From positions 1 through 44,843 of IMG/VR virus record IMGVR_UViG_3300025000_000176: a DNA stretch of 44,843 nt; one strand, given 5' to 3'. Each line of letters begins with the position of its first letter. Position 1 is the first letter of the stretch. Positions 3,345 to 41,739 of the stretch are shown piece by piece. Source of the stretch: a virus. The notes under the pieces are model-generated. The model was not told the DNA's origin. It did not search any database and saw only the letters and a program-made list of their open reading frames with translations. A program made the translations under genes and the position numbers.

Positions 3345-3382
3345 AATATTTTTTATTAATTGTTTGTAATTGTTTAACGATG

Positions 3383-3414
3383 TAAAGATAATACGCTATC
3401 CCGTATTTTCCAAA
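3383..3414 (-). promoter_or_regulatory. Bacteroidetes-type promoter for the minus-strand pair
   Basis: Read leftward, TTTG (3414-3411) and TATCTTTA (3390-3383) are separated by 20 bases. The -7 element departs from TAnnTTTG by its last base. The spacer contains ATACG and CGTAT arms. The block from about 3381 to 3440 is nearly identical to 6126-6185. Confidence 0.6.
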
Positions 3415-3421
3415 TATTTTT

Positions 3422-3439
3422 ATATGTTGTACAACATAT
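3422..3439. promoter_or_regulatory. perfect 18-bp palindromic operator between divergent promoters
   Basis: ATATGTTGTACAACATAT is a perfect palindrome. Its centre lies 40.5 bases from the first base of the -7 box of both the leftward (3390) and the rightward (3471) promoter. Related sites occur at 6167, 15664, 31171, 41804 and, as a half-site, 44234. A position upstream of the -33 box on both sides fits an activator or a shared regulator. Confidence 0.65.
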
Positions 3440-3447
3440 ATGATTTA

Positions 3448-3478
3448 TTTGTAGAATTATAAATATAATATATATTTG
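3448..3478 (+). promoter_or_regulatory. Bacteroidetes-type promoter for the 124-aa secreted protein
   Basis: TTTG (3448-3451), a 19-base spacer and a consensus TATATTTG (3471-3478) lie 41 bases before the ATG at 3520. This is a full match to the -33/-7 pattern. Confidence 0.75.
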
Positions 3479-6096: not shown

Positions 6097-6127
6097 AATT
6101 TTTTGTTTTTTATTGTTTTTGACGAGG

Positions 6128-6159
6128 TAAAGATAATACGCTAATCCGTATTTACCAAA
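6128..6159 (-). promoter_or_regulatory. promoter of the 75-aa minus-strand gene
   Basis: Leftward TTTG (6159-6156), a 20-base spacer and TATCTTTA (6135-6128). The region 6126-6185 is a near copy of 3381-3440, with only a handful of differences in 60 bases. Confidence 0.6.
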
Positions 6160-6166
6160 TATTTTT

Positions 6167-6184
6167 ATATGTTGTAAAACATAT
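6167..6184. promoter_or_regulatory. operator-like palindrome, second copy
   Basis: ATATGTTGTAAAACATAT differs at one position from the perfect palindrome at 3422. Its centre lies 40.5 bases from the leftward -7 box and 41.5 bases from the rightward -7 box at 6217. Confidence 0.6.
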
Positions 6185-6216
6185 AAAAATTATAGGCATT
6201 ATAATATAATATGTTA

Positions 6217-28918: not shown

Positions 28919-31117
28919 TTACTCAAAAATAATAGTAGATTGTAATTTTGACTCAAAAGCTTTTTTTACATTTTTAACAGCTGTATCAAAATAGCTGTCT
29001 TTCAATTCAATACCTATTCCTTTACGATTATTTTTCACCGCTTTATAAATTTCGCTGCCAATTCCGAGAAATGGAGTAAAAATAATTTCTCCTTCATTTG
29101 ACCATAAATGGATAAGTCTATGAATTACTTCAAGTTGCAGAGGTGCAATGTGTTTTTCATCTCCAAGTGCTGTACCTTCCTTACCATTGAGAACGTCAGT
29201 TCTCTTAATATCCATCCACACCGGGCTTGCCCATTTTTGCCAAATATCTAAAGGAAAATTACTTTTACTTAAATTAGTAATAGGCTCCCACAATTCTTCG
29301 CTTGAGCCGTCCCATTTTTTAAAAATAGTTATATATTCCGCCATTCCGATTCCCGTCTTAGAACTATCTGAAGTGACTTGTTTATACAGAAGTCTTTGTG
29401 TTTTAGTCCTTTGCATTTCGAGAACCGGATCACACCAGATAGTTATTTTTGAATGAAGTTTAAATTCTTCATTCAAAACAGCCTTCGTATGCTCCCCCGT
29501 AAAATCAAACATTCCAGTATAACCGCTGAAATTTTTATAAACACCTAAATCCTTAGTGTGGCAACACATTAGCCTCCCAGGCTTTAAAATTCTAAATAAA
29601 TCTTTCAATAAAAAAGCATATTGTTTAAAAAATTCTTCATGATTTTCGTTGTTACCCATGTCGTGGACATAGTTGGAATAAGTGAATAGCGAAGAAAATG
29701 GAGGTGAAAAAATTATTAGGTCAACTGAATTATCAGGAATTGTTTTTATCTCAATACAGCTATCTCCTTTAATTAATAATACATCATTATTTTTAAACTC
29801 TCGCCTCTCGTATGTGTCTAATAATCCATATTTTACATTGTTTATATTTTTATTCATTTCTTGCTGCATTTCAAGAAATTGACGTTCTTTTTTTTCAATT
29901 GATTTTACAACATTTTCCATGGTATCTGTTTTTATTAAATGTATATTAACTTCATTTTTTTGTCCAAATCGATAACTCCTTCTAATCTGTTGATAATAAG
30001 CCTCAAAACTAAAATCTAAACTGGGAAATATTTGAGTTGAGCAATTTTGAAAATTCATTCCAAATTGAGCAATTTTAGCTTTAGTTATTAAAATTTTAAA
30101 TTCATTATTTGCAAATCCAAGTAATGTTTTTTCCTTGTATTCTGTTGAATCACTGCCCTTTACTTCTTTGCAATTTTCTAATTTTTTTTGCAACCAGTCG
30201 CCTTCTTCATTCTGCTTAACCCAGATTAATATCTGCCCTTTTATTTTTTCACATATTTCAACCACTTTTTGAAGTCTTTTTTCTTTAGTTTCTCGCAAAA
30301 CTTTATTAAAATTAGTTGCGTTAACCGCTGATTCATTGAATATTAGCCCGCTCCCAACTTTAACATCCGTAATAATTTCATGTTCAATTTGTTGTAATTT
30401 CGGTAAAATAAAATTAGTCCCGTCAAAACCAATATCAGCAGGGTTAGTAATCATCGTAGCCCAGCTACTTATCCAACCATAGAAATCTGTTTTTGCGTGA
30501 TTTTTTAAACGATAGTTGTTCATTCCTTGATCCCTTACAAACCACTTAGAACGCATGTCCTGTGCATCAAGTACATCAAGAAATTCGCTGTGGTTACCTA
30601 TTTCGTTCAGGTCATTCGGTGATGGAGTAGCTGTACATGCTAATTTATATGGAGTTTTCTTAAATGTGTTGATAATCAGGTTTTTATAATGCCCTGTAAA
30701 ATTTTTCAAAATTGAAGATTCGTCTAAAATGACGCCAGAAAATAACTCAACGTTGATATTATCAAGTTGTTCATAATTAATGATTTGGATAGGAAAATTA
30801 CTTCCGTCATACTTAATAACCTCAATTTTAAATTTTTCACCTTCGTTAATTGTTTGGCCAGATACGGCCAACGGACATAATATCAGCACTGGTTTTTTTG
30901 TTTTTTTTGCAACTTGAAATGCCCATTCCAACTGCATTATAGTCTTTCCAAGTCCGCAATCTGCAAAAATTGCATATTTGCCAGATTTTAAGGATTTTTT
31001 TACTATATGTTTTTGAAAATCAAATAAATGTTTATTTAATTTATTTATAAGTACGTCGAATCCCGAATTTAGATGTTTTATTTTTTTTGTTTCTAAAAAT
31101 TCAAAATATTTGTCCAT
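28919..31117 (-). CDS. SF2/SNF2-type helicase fused to an N4/N6 DNA methyltransferase
   Basis: This 732-aa protein joins two enzymes. Residues 30-410 are an SF2 translocase: FADCGLGKT (Walker A, K58), LDESS (131-135, motif II), ACTATPSP (motif III) and QQIRRSYRFGQ (376-386, motif VI). Residues 440-732 are a permuted amino-methyltransferase: IFSPPF (469-474, catalytic SPPF) precedes TPFLGIGS (681-688, SAM loop) and GIGIEL. Both halves have intact motifs. Fusion suggests methylation coupled to DNA translocation, for self-protection or modification of phage DNA. It has its own promoter at 31140. Confidence 0.85.
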   Translation of the reverse strand: MDKYFEFLETKKIKHLNSGFDVLINKLNKHLFDFQKHIVKKSLKSGKYAIFADCGLGKTIMQLEWAFQVAKKTKKPVLILCPLAVSGQTINEGEKFKIEVIKYDGSNFPIQIINYEQLDNINVELFSGVILDESSILKNFTGHYKNLIINTFKKTPYKLACTATPSPNDLNEIGNHSEFLDVLDAQDMRSKWFVRDQGMNNYRLKNHAKTDFYGWISSWATMITNPADIGFDGTNFILPKLQQIEHEIITDVKVGSGLIFNESAVNATNFNKVLRETKEKRLQKVVEICEKIKGQILIWVKQNEEGDWLQKKLENCKEVKGSDSTEYKEKTLLGFANNEFKILITKAKIAQFGMNFQNCSTQIFPSLDFSFEAYYQQIRRSYRFGQKNEVNIHLIKTDTMENVVKSIEKKERQFLEMQQEMNKNINNVKYGLLDTYERREFKNNDVLLIKGDSCIEIKTIPDNSVDLIIFSPPFSSLFTYSNYVHDMGNNENHEEFFKQYAFLLKDLFRILKPGRLMCCHTKDLGVYKNFSGYTGMFDFTGEHTKAVLNEEFKLHSKITIWCDPVLEMQRTKTQRLLYKQVTSDSSKTGIGMAEYITIFKKWDGSSEELWEPITNLSKSNFPLDIWQKWASPVWMDIKRTDVLNGKEGTALGDEKHIAPLQLEVIHRLIHLWSNEGEIIFTPFLGIGSEIYKAVKNNRKGIGIELKDSYFDTAVKNVKKAFESKLQSTIIFE

Positions 31118-33830: not shown

Positions 33831-33903
33831 ACTTCTAATCGAGTTCAGTGGAGTAATTTTATTATTTTTTTGCCCACGCACTTCGGTTTTTTCAAAACCG
33901 TTT
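33831..33903. repeat. decayed copy of a 73-bp sequence also at 35166
   Basis: This stretch is about 85% identical to 35166-35238, which encodes the C-terminal end of the 70-aa gene. Here small indels break the frame, so it is a non-coding relic just after the PAPS-reductase-like gene. Confidence 0.7.
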
Positions 33904-33906
33904 GGA

Positions 33907-34821
33907 TTAAAAAACTTCGCAACTCTCAACGCATCCATTGCTTATATCTAAATCAAATAATTCAGCTTGTTTATATTCAGGCTTGTATTCACTTTCATCA
34001 ATGGCAGGGTCAAAAGGTTGTTTTGCCATTTCCACAATGTCATAAATACTTTTGTTTTGTCTAAAGCAATTAATAGGCGGTTTCATAAGTGGGTTATGTT
34101 GTTTTGTTATCGGTATAAATCCACTATATTTCTTTTCCATTTCAACCCACCAAATAGTTGTTTCAGGCGTTTCATTAACAATAGTCATTAGTTTCCTAAA
34201 TGATTTTTTGAAGCATAAATCACAATTGCCTTCGTATGTTTTTAATTCTAAATCAAATGGTTGTTCACTCCAAAATTTGTTAATGTCATTTTTTCTGGTA
34301 GGTATATGTGAAACTAACGGGTAAATAAATCTTTGCTTAACATGGTCAGGTGCAACCCTATCAATTTCATCTATCCTAATTCCAATAGCAGTGTACCAAT
34401 GCTTCCAACCAATTGAGCGGGCATAAGCCTGTATTGTGTATTTTTTCAATTCACGGGTGCAATGTGGGCTTTTTACGCTTGGCATTCCATGTTTTGCAAT
34501 CATCGCTTCAAATGGTTCACCGTTTCGACTTGCTATTTTGTAGTCAACAACTTTGGCTCTAACACCTTTTCTGTTTTCAGGATTTGTAATAGCTTCAACC
34601 CAAACGCAATTGAACCCAAAGTATTTATCGCATTTCTCCACAAAATCAAGAGTTTCTTCTCGTTCCTTTCCTGTGTTAGCGTAAACAACTAATATTTCAT
34701 ACTTATCACTAAGGTTATCAATACACCACTTAGTCATATAAGCCGATGTTCTTCCACCAGAGAAAGAAATCAAAAGCCCCCCTATTTTTTCTTTTTTTAC
34801 ATTCATACTTTTAATTATCAT
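33907..34821 (-). CDS. PP-loop PAPS reductase/DndC-like protein
   Basis: This 304-aa protein has a PP-loop (FSGGRTSA, residues 20-27) of the adenine-nucleotide alpha-hydrolase superfamily, with the following VVYANTGKERE strand-loop. Cysteines in HCTRELKK (C121) and CDLC (C200, C203) could bind metal or Fe-S, as in DndC-type proteins. Relatives activate sulfate or, in Dnd systems, help put sulfur into DNA. No Dnd partners are seen here. An in-frame ATG at 34806 is an alternative start. It is flanked by an attC-like site and a decayed repeat, so it looks transferred. Confidence 0.72.
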   Translation of the reverse strand: MIIKSMNVKKEKIGGLLISFSGGRTSAYMTKWCIDNLSDKYEILVVYANTGKEREETLDFVEKCDKYFGFNCVWVEAITNPENRKGVRAKVVDYKIASRNGEPFEAMIAKHGMPSVKSPHCTRELKKYTIQAYARSIGWKHWYTAIGIRIDEIDRVAPDHVKQRFIYPLVSHIPTRKNDINKFWSEQPFDLELKTYEGNCDLCFKKSFRKLMTIVNETPETTIWWVEMEKKYSGFIPITKQHNPLMKPPINCFRQNKSIYDIVEMAKQPFDPAIDESEYKPEYKQAELFDLDISNGCVESCEVF

Positions 34822-35165: not shown

Positions 35166-35238
35166 ACTTCTAATCAAGTTCAGTGGGAGTAATTTTATTA
35201 TTTTTTTGCCCACCCGCTTCGGCTTTATCAAGCCGTTT
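35166..35238. repeat. intact copy of the 73-bp repeat
   Basis: It encodes the C-terminal end of the 70-aa gene (DKAEAGGQKNNKITPTELD) plus its stop and is the source-like, in-frame partner of the decayed copy at 33831-33903, 1.3 kb away. Confidence 0.7.
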
Positions 35239-37464: not shown

Positions 37465-38226
37465 TTAATCAAATTTAAAGTTCTGACATGCAATTTTTAG
37501 AGAATCCGTATAACTATGTGTATTCCAAAGTTTTATAGCTTCGTCAGCAATTTGGCATCTTTGCATGATTGCTTTTTGATGAATTTTGGAAGCATTGACA
37601 ATCTGATACTTATATTTCTCAATTGTCATTGGATAAGCAACCACATACAGACACTTATCAGTGCCTGCAGCCATCATTTCTGCTTGCATCTGCCAAAAAT
37701 CACAATGAGTTTGATCAACTTGTTCTTCATACATCCGTTCATAATGTCCGTCCCAGCTCACTGTACATTTTACCTCTAAGCACATCTCTTCATTTTTAAA
37801 AACACATAAACCATCGACGGATGCACCTGCATTTTTATAAAATAATTCAAATGATTTTGCCTCGTAATTACTTATTATATTGTCTTTTAGTAATTTATTT
37901 ATTAAAATAATCTCATTCATCCGGCCATACTGCATTTGTTTTGAATCAATTTGCATCGAATAACAGCCTGTAGTTCTCTCTCCGCCAACACCATAGATAT
38001 ACTTCTCTGCTGTTGCACCAAAATCAACGATCTTGTCATTAGTTGTCCAAGGCATTTTGGAAGAAGCTCTGCCACAACCCATTAATAATTTCATATTGCT
38101 GCCAGTGAACTTGCCTCTTCTTATTGTGTACCATTCTTCCGTTCTCTGAAGAGAGCTTATTTGCTCACTATCAAGCAATTGCCCGACAATTTTAAATTCC
38201 GAACCAAATTCTTGTAATTCTTTCAT
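37465..38226 (-). CDS. YqaJ-type recombination exonuclease
   Basis: This 253-aa protein fits the YqaJ/lambda exonuclease family: RTEEWYTIRRGKFTGS (residues 28-43), ASVDGLCVF (D138), CLEVKC (E151, K153) and FWQMQAEM (178-185). It would resect double-strand ends to make 3' tails for strand annealing. It follows the annealase candidate by one base. Confidence 0.87.
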   Translation of the reverse strand: MKELQEFGSEFKIVGQLLDSEQISSLQRTEEWYTIRRGKFTGSNMKLLMGCGRASSKMPWTTNDKIVDFGATAEKYIYGVGGERTTGCYSMQIDSKQMQYGRMNEIILINKLLKDNIISNYEAKSFELFYKNAGASVDGLCVFKNEEMCLEVKCTVSWDGHYERMYEEQVDQTHCDFWQMQAEMMAAGTDKCLYVVAYPMTIEKYKYQIVNASKIHQKAIMQRCQIADEAIKLWNTHSYTDSLKIACQNFKFD

Positions 38227-38227
38227 A

Positions 38228-38728
38228 TTATTCTGATTTTATGTAACTTACATCGAATCCAAAATCATTTGAGCAACTTCTGCCGACATTGCGGCCAAAT
38301 ACATTTCCAATAGTTTCTAACGCATTGCCAATTGCTTCTGATCTAACACCCGGCAAGCAGTACTCTAATGCATTCTTTTTCTTACCTTTAGGAAATTCCC
38401 ATGCTACAGAACCGCTATCACATTGCACCTCCTTAGATGCTGAACCTGTGAATGTTATGTAATCTGCTCCGGGGTAATCTGGTAAAGCATTGATCTTCAC
38501 AGTACATACGATTTCGTTCAATACGTTCATGTATTTTTCGTCAACCACTTCATTTTGTCGGAATATCATTTCAGCAAGTGCCTGTTTTGCTTCAATTGGC
38601 ACATAATCAACACTCTTGCCATTTCCTATATCTCTTTTTTTTATAAATTGTGCCGGAGGTGATTTTTGAAGAGCTATTTTATAGCTTTCAAAATCCTTGT
38701 ACCTGTAATGTTCTTTTTTTTCTTCCAT
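38228..38728 (-). CDS. putative single-strand annealing protein
   Basis: This 166-aa protein lies directly before the YqaJ exonuclease gene, the usual partner position. Its C-terminal PGVRSEAIGNALETIGNVFG resembles the helix of Rad52/Erf-like annealases, where alternating hydrophobic and charged residues line the DNA groove. The N-terminus has VPIEAKQALAEMIFRQN. The family is a guess from helix and context. Confidence 0.5.
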   Translation of the reverse strand: MEEKKEHYRYKDFESYKIALQKSPPAQFIKKRDIGNGKSVDYVPIEAKQALAEMIFRQNEVVDEKYMNVLNEIVCTVKINALPDYPGADYITFTGSASKEVQCDSGSVAWEFPKGKKKNALEYCLPGVRSEAIGNALETIGNVFGRNVGRSCSNDFGFDVSYIKSE

Positions 38729-38787
38729 AATCTATTGATTTTTAAATAATAAATGTCCATCTTCTATTAGAATTTCGCCATCCCTGA
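38724..38787. repeat. 64-bp perfect direct repeat, left copy
   Basis: It is identical over 64 bases to 39259-39322. This copy holds the 3' end of the 173-aa gene (in another frame), the leader and the ATG of the 166-aa gene. Confidence 0.95.
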
Positions 38788-39263
38788 TTTTCATTTTGAG
38801 GAAAAGAGCCAATATTCAATAATTTTAAAATAGCTTTTTCCAAAGCAGAATCTTTCTTGATATATTTAGCAGATTTGAAGAACAATGTTGATACTCCTTT
38901 TCGACTTTCCTGCCCTGCAAGTATTTTACTTTGTAGGTCTTGTAGTATGGTTTGTGATTTTATGAGGGTCATTAAACCTTTTATTTCAAATTCAGAAAAA
39001 TTCGTATAATCCGATAAGAGCTCATTTTCTGATAAAAAAGAATAGTATTTTGTAAATAGTTCTGAAAAGCCTTCAGATTCAAACTTTTGATTAAACTTGT
39101 ACGATGGTTGAAGAATTTTTCTGGTTCCTCTTTTATATTCTATAAAACCTTCTGTTATTAAATATTTAATATAGGGCCTATCAGCTATTTTTGCCTTAGT
39201 ATCTCTATTACAATAAAGCTGGTTTAAAGCTTTGATTTCACGCCATGTTAGTTGTTTATCCAT
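38742..39263 (-). CDS. hypothetical protein carried between 64-bp direct repeats
   Basis: This 173-aa helical protein starts MDKQLTWREIKALNQLYCN, with a winged-helix-like N-terminal region (about residues 5-60), and has no recognised family. Its last 14 residues (WRNSNRRWTFII) are read from the direct repeat in a frame other than that used by the SMC-like gene. The gene plus one repeat copy make up a 535-bp unit that could be excised cleanly, so it looks inserted. Confidence 0.6.
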   Translation of the reverse strand: MDKQLTWREIKALNQLYCNRDTKAKIADRPYIKYLITEGFIEYKRGTRKILQPSYKFNQKFESEGFSELFTKYYSFLSENELLSDYTNFSEFEIKGLMTLIKSQTILQDLQSKILAGQESRKGVSTLFFKSAKYIKKDSALEKAILKLLNIGSFPQNENQGWRNSNRRWTFII

Positions 39264-39322
39264 AATCTATTGATTTTTAAATAATAAATGTCCATCTTCT
39301 ATTAGAATTTCGCCATCCCTGA
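39259..39322. repeat. 64-bp perfect direct repeat, right copy
   Basis: This copy carries the last 17 codons of the SMC-like gene, its TAG, the leader and the ATG of the 173-aa gene. Being in frame with the SMC-like gene, it is likely the original copy. Confidence 0.95.
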
Positions 39323-40982
39323 GTTCTTTTTGATCAAAATCGCCAGTGATGTTGACAATAATTGTCAAGTCAAGTTCATTGCTCATTTTTTCAAGCAATT
39401 TCTTAGTCTTATTATCGATCGGTACATTATCTATCCATAAGTATCTCAACGCTTTAGGTTTTGTGTCAAGTAGATAATTCTGCAACAATAAACAGATAAG
39501 CGGCTTCTGAGTTCCGGAATATGAACTAATCTTCCTGTCTTGCAGGTCCAGATTATTGAAGTACTTAGGATCGTATAAGCCATTATAAGTTAGATAGATG
39601 TTAGTGTTTGAACTTTCATCTTCTTCAACACATATCTTTAAGCCTTGAACTCCTGTATCAATGCTCCCAAGCATTCTTATATAGTCATTTCTTAATCTAA
39701 CAACCTCAGCGTCTGCATCATGCCATTTTAAGAAAGCATCAACCATTTCGCACTTCTTATTATTTTCTTTTGCGAGAAAAATATTATTCAGAACTAATTG
39801 AAGTTCATTCTCTTGAGCAAAGGTATCATCTGCGGGTGTATTAAGTAAGTTCACATATTCTTTTCTTTTTTCAGATAAAGAAATTAATAAATTTTTAATT
39901 ATATCTTCTTCAAAATCAGCAGCTTCAGAAATTATTTGTTGTTTTTCATTAAATTGAATAGTTTTTTTAAATTTTGGTTCAATGACTTCTATATCAATAA
40001 GTTCGTTATTAAATCTCTTAATTAATAATTCATAATCATTAATATATCCTAATTTATTCAATTCGCTAATATTTAATCGAATAGCTTCAATTTTTTCCTT
40101 AACTTTATCTAATTCAGCATTCTTCCTATCAACATTCTTTTGCTCCTCAGTGTTAATTGCAAGCAATTTATTATTTTCCTTAACAATATCATTAACAATT
40201 GCATCCGCCTTATTCTTAATAAGTTCGAGTTTTGTTTTGCGAGTTTCAATTATATTGTCAATTTGATATTGTAATTTATTTTTTTGCGACTCGAGTTCTT
40301 GAATATTCTGAAATGCTGGAATAGTGTCCGGGTCTTCAAGTGGATAAATTCCTAACGGCTCTAATTGATTCAAAAATCCACCAACTTTCTTTCTTTCGAA
40401 ATCAAGTTGAGTTCTTAAATTGATGGCTTTTTCGATATTGTAAAGGATTGAATCGACATATTTTTCCGAACCTTTATCGAATATGACTCCTGCCATAGCC
40501 AATTCTTTTTTATACAACTCAAGGAGTAATTTTTTTTGAACGATTTTGTCTTCTGAGGTCAATTCATTCATCCGCCACGTCAAAGCTGTTTGAAGATTAT
40601 TAAGATAACTGGCTGGAGTAGCTTTTACGCCATCAATAACAGGATTCTTTATAATTTTTCCCTGTTCATCTTTAGTATATATTATATACTCTAAGTTAGA
40701 ACTTTTTCCAGTTTTACAACCAATGAATATTTTTTGCTCACCATCAAGCAATTGCGTTTCTTGATTTATTTTACCATATAATTCATTGTCCTCTAATGCT
40801 TTTGAGCCGGCTGTTCCAATTTGTAATGATTTTTGAAGTGTAGTCTTGCCAGAACCTACAGCCCCTTTAACAACAACTAATTTATTGTCAGGATCAAATG
40901 CAAGTTCACAACATTTTAAGATGCCTAATTCTTCAATAATTTTGAGTCCAATAATTTTGACGCTTGTTTGTGATTTTTTCAT
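39267..40982 (-). CDS. SMC/SbcC-like ATPase
   Basis: This 571-aa protein has an N-terminal P-loop (VKGAVGSGKTT, 38-48), long coiled-coil halves (about 190-300 and 320-420) and a C-terminal Walker B-like YLWIDNVPI (514-522). This is the shape of RecF/SbcC/Rad50-type ATPases, shortened. It may process DNA ends together with the exonuclease downstream. No nuclease subunit such as SbcD is seen nearby. It starts 5 bases after the regulator gene. Confidence 0.82.
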   Translation of the reverse strand: MKKSQTSVKIIGLKIIEELGILKCCELAFDPDNKLVVVKGAVGSGKTTLQKSLQIGTAGSKALEDNELYGKINQETQLLDGEQKIFIGCKTGKSSNLEYIIYTKDEQGKIIKNPVIDGVKATPASYLNNLQTALTWRMNELTSEDKIVQKKLLLELYKKELAMAGVIFDKGSEKYVDSILYNIEKAINLRTQLDFERKKVGGFLNQLEPLGIYPLEDPDTIPAFQNIQELESQKNKLQYQIDNIIETRKTKLELIKNKADAIVNDIVKENNKLLAINTEEQKNVDRKNAELDKVKEKIEAIRLNISELNKLGYINDYELLIKRFNNELIDIEVIEPKFKKTIQFNEKQQIISEAADFEEDIIKNLLISLSEKRKEYVNLLNTPADDTFAQENELQLVLNNIFLAKENNKKCEMVDAFLKWHDADAEVVRLRNDYIRMLGSIDTGVQGLKICVEEDESSNTNIYLTYNGLYDPKYFNNLDLQDRKISSYSGTQKPLICLLLQNYLLDTKPKALRYLWIDNVPIDNKTKKLLEKMSNELDLTIIVNITGDFDQKELRDGEILIEDGHLLFKNQ

Positions 40983-40986
40983 GTGT

Positions 40987-41319
40987 TTATATTATTTTTA
41001 ATATATAATCCTCGCCTTTCTTAATTATAACATACTGATATGTCGTGGCTGTAGATCCAAAACATAGTGCAGCGTTCTCGCCTTTTATATACTTAGTGTC
41101 GCCATCATATACTACCTCAACTTCAATTAATTCGCCGGATAATTTCTCGCATAGCTTTAATTTTAAGGGCTTAATTATATCTTCAAGTGTTGAGAGCCTT
41201 ATATCGATTTTTTTGTTTAAAAAGTCGTATAAAGTTGCTTTTCGGATCTTGTGCTTTTCACAAAATTCAGATTGTTTGCCAAATAATTCTAAAATTTTAT
41301 TTTTAATTAAAGTTCTCAT
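40987..41319 (-). CDS. XRE/Cro-type transcriptional regulator
   Basis: This 110-aa protein has an N-terminal HTH (FGKQSEFCEKHKIRKATL, then LSTLEDIIKPLKLKL) like lambda Cro-type and XRE regulators, followed by a beta-rich 50-residue domain. It is the only clear regulator in the window and a candidate for binding the ATGTTnTAAAACAT sites. It is in the operon whose promoter (41763) carries one of these sites, so autoregulation is possible. Confidence 0.75.
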   Translation of the reverse strand: MRTLIKNKILELFGKQSEFCEKHKIRKATLYDFLNKKIDIRLSTLEDIIKPLKLKLCEKLSGELIEVEVVYDGDTKYIKGENAALCFGSTATTYQYVIIKKGEDYILKII

Positions 41320-41322
41320 ATT

Positions 41323-41739
41323 TTATTTAACTAATTGATTATTATCACAATACAGCACCTTACACTGAGGTAATTCTGGCAAGCTAACTAATTGATTATT
41401 ACGACAATCCAGCACCTCGCACTTAGGTAATTCAGGCAAGCTAACTAATTGATTATTACTACAATCCAGCTCCTCGCACTGAGGTAATTCAGGCAAGCTA
41501 ACTAATTGATTATTACTACAATTAAGTATTTGACATCTATCCCATAACTTTTGCGGAATATCTTCAATTTTTAAAAAAATATTGTCACTCAACCAATCGA
41601 AATTTCTAAAAACTACGTTCATGAAATCAACAGTGGTTGTGGCTTCTAATGCGGCCCTATATCTTGTCGCACAGGCACCTGCATTCTTAGATTTTTCTAA
41701 AATTTCTTTTCTAAATTGTTCAAAAATAAACTGTCCCAT
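41323..41739 (-). CDS. leucine-rich-repeat protein
   Basis: This 138-aa protein has a helical N-terminal half (about residues 1-65, with FMNVVFRNFDWLSDN) and three and a half 19-residue leucine-rich repeats of the form LPELPQCEELDCSNNQLVS. The DNA repeats are 57 bp long and nearly identical. LRRs form a curved protein-binding surface; the partner is unknown. The protein stops early, directly after the repeats, with no C-terminal cap, so copy number probably varies by slippage. Confidence 0.72.
   Translation of the reverse strand: MGQFIFEQFRKEILEKSKNAGACATRYRAALEATTTVDFMNVVFRNFDWLSDNIFLKIEDIPQKLWDRCQILNCSNNQLVSLPELPQCEELDCSNNQLVSLPELPKCEVLDCRNNQLVSLPELPQCKVLYCDNNQLVK
41327..41535. repeat. 57-bp tandem repeats in the LRR gene
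   Basis: Units begin at about 41327, 41384, 41441 and 41498, 57 bases apart, each starting with the (C/T)TAACTAATTGATTATTA block. Units are nearly identical at DNA level, a sign of recent expansion. Confidence 0.9.

Follow-up and report, generated by a model that had tools for sequence, protein, structure and literature searches.

The window, by which we mean the whole stretch of DNA analysed here, is a viral sequence record 44,843 bp long, with genes for a terminase, a portal, a head protease, a tail sheath and a tape measure. It is a phage of Bacteroidota, and the named phages that best match its primase and its SMC-like gene have mostly Bacteroidota hosts. On the minus strand, it carries a row of recombination genes in the order HTH, SMC-like, a gene encoding 173 aa, Rad52-like annealase and YqaJ exonuclease. 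No JetA, JetB or JetC gene lies alongside the 173-aa ORF, whose neighbours are the phage genes for the SMC-like protein, the annealase and the exonuclease. The genes and the two copies of a direct repeat are as follows.

40987..41319, minus strand: small HTH gene that opens the recombination operon; a homologous HTH gene lies 5' of the SMC-like gene in most relatives
39267..40982, minus strand: SMC-like gene (Rad50/SbcC-like P-loop, GAVGSGKTT), 571 aa, with relatives at 21 loci in viral contigs
39259..39322, minus strand: right repeat copy, an exact match to the left copy, with the conserved in-frame SMC C-terminus
38742..39263, minus strand: 173-aa ORF, the N-terminal half of JetD (residues 1-161) followed by 12 residues that the phage SMC tail encodes in a different frame
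38724..38787, minus strand: left repeat copy, the end of the 173-aa ORF and then the annealase leader and start
38228..38728, minus strand: Rad52-like annealase gene, 166 aa (phrog_15333, 1.1e-43; Rad52_Rad22, weak, 0.018)
37465..38226, minus strand: YqaJ-type exonuclease gene, 253 aa (PF09588, 1.4e-6; phrog_149, 2e-20)

Elsewhere, the phage encodes a leucine-rich-repeat protein (41323-41739) with 57-bp tandem units about 90% alike (units at 41328-41522), a 732-aa fusion of a helicase to a DNA methyltransferase (28919-31117) and a phosphoadenosine-phosphosulfate-reductase-like protein (33907-34821).

The maximal exact length of the repeat is 64 bp (38724-38787 and 39259-39322), with 535 bp from start to start and 471 bp between the copies. 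The 44.8-kb window contains no second direct repeat that is both equally long and exact, and no other exact copy of the sequence was found in viral contigs. The right copy reads as the C-terminus of the SMC-like protein (RDGEILIEDGHLLFKNQ, ending at the stop TAG), then ATT and the ATGGA of the 173-aa gene. This C-terminus is the native one, and it is conserved, in frame, in relatives. The left copy first encodes, in a different frame, the end of the 173-aa protein and then provides the leader and the ATGGA of the annealase gene. The earlier note had described this arrangement of identical copies around the 173-aa gene, with a native right copy and a left copy used in a different frame, and it holds on rechecking. 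Two looser repeats lie elsewhere: one of 89 bp, 83% alike, ahead of two late genes (3373-3461 and 6118-6206), which has a palindrome, ATGTTGTACAACAT, in its first copy and could be a promoter or operator, and one of 46 bp, 91% alike, in the early gene region (33850-33895 and 35186-35231), which could be a shared leader.

Only a scan of bacterial genomes revealed the source of the 173-aa gene. Scans of the protein with Pfam, PHROGs, NCBIfam and PADLOC gave nothing significant (a winged-helix match to PF14947 is weak, E 0.07), and tblastn against phages and plasmids gave no match. The bacterial scan returned three relatives, each matched over residues 1-162 only, and all are JetD. Amino-acid identity over residues 1-161 is 84% to the JetD of a Bacteroidetes MAG (HGW-21, locus L025), where DNA identity is 83%, and 53-56% to those of L026 and L027. 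The match begins at the jetD start codon and ends 16 residues before E177, the Toprim glutamate and first catalytic residue. The N-terminal half with its homologous domain is complete; the C-terminal Toprim domain with its catalytic E and DxD is absent, including all three residues conserved in cellular JetD (E177, D220 and D222). All other cellular matches are long, JetD-sized frames, except in L026, a Proteiniphilum MAG in which a frameshift breaks jetD into two ORFs (L026:6001-6967). The tree places the phage row beside L025 (support 86/87), and its branch is short. These alignments identify the 173-aa gene as the captured 5' half of a bacterial jetD, the nuclease gene of the plasmid-defence system Wadjet, an origin that the earlier reading, which stopped at a 173-aa gene in a repeat, had missed. 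Two profile scans of viral contigs, in which the pattern step was narrow, found no further stand-alone JetD N-terminal half, and the phage fragment is known from a single contig. A fold search with a weak JetD structure model gave no significant match; Spo11 came top and JetD 7til was in the list.

The operon of L025 encodes JetA (435 aa), JetB (227 aa), JetC (1115 aa) and JetD (321 aa), the row of kleisin, KITE, SMC and Toprim nuclease expected of Wadjet. JetB matches MksE (3.9e-16), JetC matches the JetC profile (2e-4), and JetA, the kleisin, was called from position and size only. Taken alone, the L025 JetD matches curated models below threshold only. The aligned full-length JetD relatives match JetD_C (best 6e-5) and the PADLOC models JetD1 (1.6e-6) and JetD3 (1.2e-4), and the profile of the JetD alignment has a weak match (E 0.26) to the MksG structure of the PDB, in its Toprim part and with the acidic motifs aligned. 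Because of these matches, from JetB to MksG, we classify the L025-type system as a divergent Wadjet (JetABCD/MksBEFG). L025 serves here as a stand-in for the true donor of the captured piece. Along 38742-39263, the phage gene differs unevenly from the L025 jetD, with 8-16 differences per 60 bp at nucleotides 0-300, 4-5 at 300-420 and 11 at 420-480, which possibly reflects a mosaic donor.

The alignment with jetD also locates the two joins of the insert.

39259..39265, minus strand: 5' join, TTATGGA, common to the phage leader and start and to the L025 jetD start
38788..39258, minus strand: captured DNA, the 471 bp between the repeat copies, which aligns to jetD throughout in L025, L026 and L027
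38780..38787, minus strand: 3' join, TCAGGGAT, common to the L025 jetD and the phage SMC tail

L026 and L027 read TCAAGGAT at the site of the 3' join. At random breakpoints between the phage and jetD sequences, shared runs of at least 7 bp have a frequency of 0.0012 and those of at least 8 bp a frequency of 0.0004. The 3' join sits 64 bp upstream of the 5' join in phage coordinates, and therefore one capture with two switches yields the insert and the repeat together. This is the simplest account of both, and it runs as follows. Through two switches, each on an identity of 7-8 bp between phage and jetD, the phage took up a host jetD from its start codon up to a point shortly ahead of the Toprim nuclease domain. 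With the second join 64 bp upstream of the first, the SMC tail, the leader and the start codon were duplicated, and the fragment and the annealase gene would each obtain a usable start. We regard the capture of a truncated host jetD and the origin of the repeat as firm, and the role of the protein as an inference. The fragment lies on the coding strand, in the orientation of the operon, with the phage leader 5' of the jetD ATG. After the insertion, fragment and annealase both have a leader and the stop-to-start distances are 3 and 13 bp, so that translation reinitiation would stay possible.

These joins bear on the proposal of the earlier note that a cassette had been inserted through the repeat. 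That the 173-aa gene was inserted between the SMC-like and annealase genes is borne out by the relatives; that it is a mobile cassette using the repeat is not. Two such joins produce insert and repeat alike, which makes the latter more readily understood as a scar, a by-product of the insertion, than as evidence of a mobile cassette. Loss of the gene by recombination between the copies is possible.

The perfect identity of the copies had been taken as a sign of a recent event or of gene conversion, and the data agree with a recent event: the copies differ at 0 of 64 positions, with a 95% upper bound of 4.6% on their divergence. The synonymous divergence between the 173-aa gene and the L025 jetD is 0.8-0.9, with a dN/dS of 0.10. 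Given the undiverged copies, most of this divergence predates the capture, which is recent. For this reason, selection on the fragment after capture is not measurable, and the low dN/dS may all predate it.

The slot between the SMC-like and annealase genes is variable among relatives. At the 21 viral loci, the SMC-like protein is 41-54% identical to that of the window; the 395 genomes of the class gave just one match to it, short and weak. Relatives without the 173-aa gene, which the earlier note had suggested looking for, exist among distant ones only: in three loci (L003, L011 and L024; SMC-like protein about 48-54% identical) the annealase gene directly follows the SMC-like gene, with a gap of 14-16 bp. 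The slot is filled by other genes of 86-144 aa in five loci (L001, L006, L007, L008 and L013) and by a helicase in L021, and it consists of stretches of 106-148 bp in L010, L012 and L014. At the annealase start of L008, 13 bp, AAATAAAGATGGA, exactly repeat the leader and start of the 89-aa slot gene (L008:5533-5825; 7 of 2000 shuffles). This resembles, on a smaller scale, the duplicated leader of the window and hints at the same way of entry. A duplicated leader as a general feature of the slot was rejected, as just L008 has such a copy, and no support was found for the other slot genes being defence fragments too. Two slot genes (L001:3587-3847 and L007:5708-5983) form a related pair (33% identity, E 2e-12) that has no relationship to the rest. 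Parabacteroides phage PF672P1 was dropped as an empty site because the gene 3' of its SMC-like gene is not a detectable annealase.

What could half a JetD do for a phage? JetD combines an N-terminal CAP domain with a C-terminal Toprim domain that cuts and dimerises; it contacts JetABC, including the N-terminus of JetB, and in the closed state its CAP domains form a pair (PMC10586767). MksG is connected with the rest of MksBEFG by the kleisin MksF (PMC10123090). Wadjet cuts circles below about 50-100 kb (PMC10586767), a range into which the phage genome (at least 44.8 kb, the length of a record that may be partial) would fall if circular in the cell. We consider it somewhat probable that the 173-aa protein, a captured half-JetD without the nuclease, is a defective-subunit inhibitor of Wadjet. 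It would fold as the N-terminal, CAP-type domain of JetD and might then either occupy the JetD docking site on JetABC or bind the N-terminal domain of the host JetD and hold the closed form; either way, circular phage DNA would be spared from cutting. In favour are the 84% identity to a JetD encoded beside JetA, JetB and JetC in L025, the JetB and JetD family matches, the start at the jetD ATG under a phage leader, the absence of the Toprim residues, the short identities at the joins, the variably filled slots, the JetD length of the cellular matches other than the frameshifted one, the dN/dS of 0.10, the short phage branch and the parallel of AcrIB3/AcrIB4. Against it, the fragment is found in one phage only, JetD dimerises through the Toprim domain that is missing here, and the structure models are weak.

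A review of February 2026 lists evasion of Wadjet only by DNA topology and DNA size, with no protein inhibitor (PMC12904381), and a paper of November 2025 merely speculated on anti-Wadjet mechanisms (PMC12647877). The fragment is a small, concrete and testable candidate for a phage protein counter-measure to Wadjet. That it is the first phage-encoded Wadjet inhibitor, poisoning the complex and caught soon after its birth, seems to us an evenly balanced proposition; the donor type, the joins and the scar of the capture all appear readable in the sequence. The locus also illustrates how such an inhibitor may arise: a single short-identity capture loses the effector domain and at the same time duplicates the leader, which preserves the start of the downstream gene. 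Should the N-terminal half prove inhibitory by itself, this would also reveal which part of JetD is important for docking or activation.

The most credible alternative, though an unlikely one, is that illegitimate recombination placed host DNA in a tolerant slot, and that the ORF, maybe translated, serves no function and is going to disappear, perhaps when the repeat copies recombine. The single occurrence and the recency of the event (the 4.6% bound between copies) speak for it, the low dN/dS can be a legacy of the donor, and a short shared sequence at the start codon could alone explain the in-frame start. It leaves less well explained that the fragment, coding-strand DNA preceded by a phage leader, has its limits exactly at a start codon and at a domain border, that the contig carries it as the only form, and that the slot houses coding genes in relatives.

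We find it quite improbable that the protein has another role in the phage, for instance as a DNA-binding winged-helix protein of the SMC-like/annealase/exonuclease module. The position inside a recombination operon, the DNA binding of CAP-type domains (PMC10586767) and the weak PF14947 match would suit such a role, but most relatives lack the fragment, their slots being empty or holding unrelated sequence, and a settled phage function would not go with so high and so recent an identity to a single cellular JetD. Still less credible is a chimera of phage and host jetD DNA from assembly or library, conceivable for a single metagenome-derived contig: two separate joins flank the 471-bp insert, the 7-8 bp shared at each are too short for assembly overlaps, and the operon is still readable. 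A cassette entering or leaving through the repeat by site-specific or homologous recombination can practically be set aside, for all that the repeat is exact, its excision product would in principle be clean and an annealase gene adjoins, since the repeat stems from the SMC tail and leader of the phage itself and not from the insert, the insert codes for the JetD half alone, with no recombination site or recombinase of its own, no other copy was found in viral contigs, and the other filled slots lack such repeats, save for the 13 bp of L008.

The candidate Wadjet inhibitor can be compared with several known systems. To JetD/MksG it is homologous from the start codon to residue 161; it differs by the loss of Toprim and the catalytic E/D, by its 12 foreign C-terminal residues and by the absence of adjacent JetA, JetB and JetC. 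With phages that acquire foreign DNA and carry Rad52-like recombinases, which are linked to relaxed recombination (PMC3945230), the locus has in common that the phage encodes a Rad52-like annealase and a YqaJ exonuclease beside the insert. Here, however, a cellular defence gene is the donor and the shared stretches measure 7-8 bp, and for these reasons a part for the annealase in the capture is conjecture. T7 gp5.9, which inhibits MukBEF as a DNA mimic acting on MukE (PMC7617805), likewise comes from a phage and acts against a member of the MukBEF/Wadjet group of complexes, as we propose for the 173-aa protein, but its target has no JetD, whereas the 173-aa protein is a piece of the nuclease subunit itself. 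In the anti-CRISPRs AcrIB3 and AcrIB4, which are homologues of Cas5 and of the C-terminal domain of Cas8b and work as defective subunits, AcrIB3 replaces Cas5 of type I-B CRISPR with a defective homologue (PMC13131331). The 173-aa protein, too, is a phage-encoded partial homologue of a defence subunit, and the proposed likeness is that such an incomplete homologue spoils the complex; its target would be an SMC-based plasmid-defence complex instead of CRISPR. The identity to the cellular gene is 84% for the 173-aa protein against 38% for AcrIB3/AcrIB4, and therefore the capture of jetD is much the younger.
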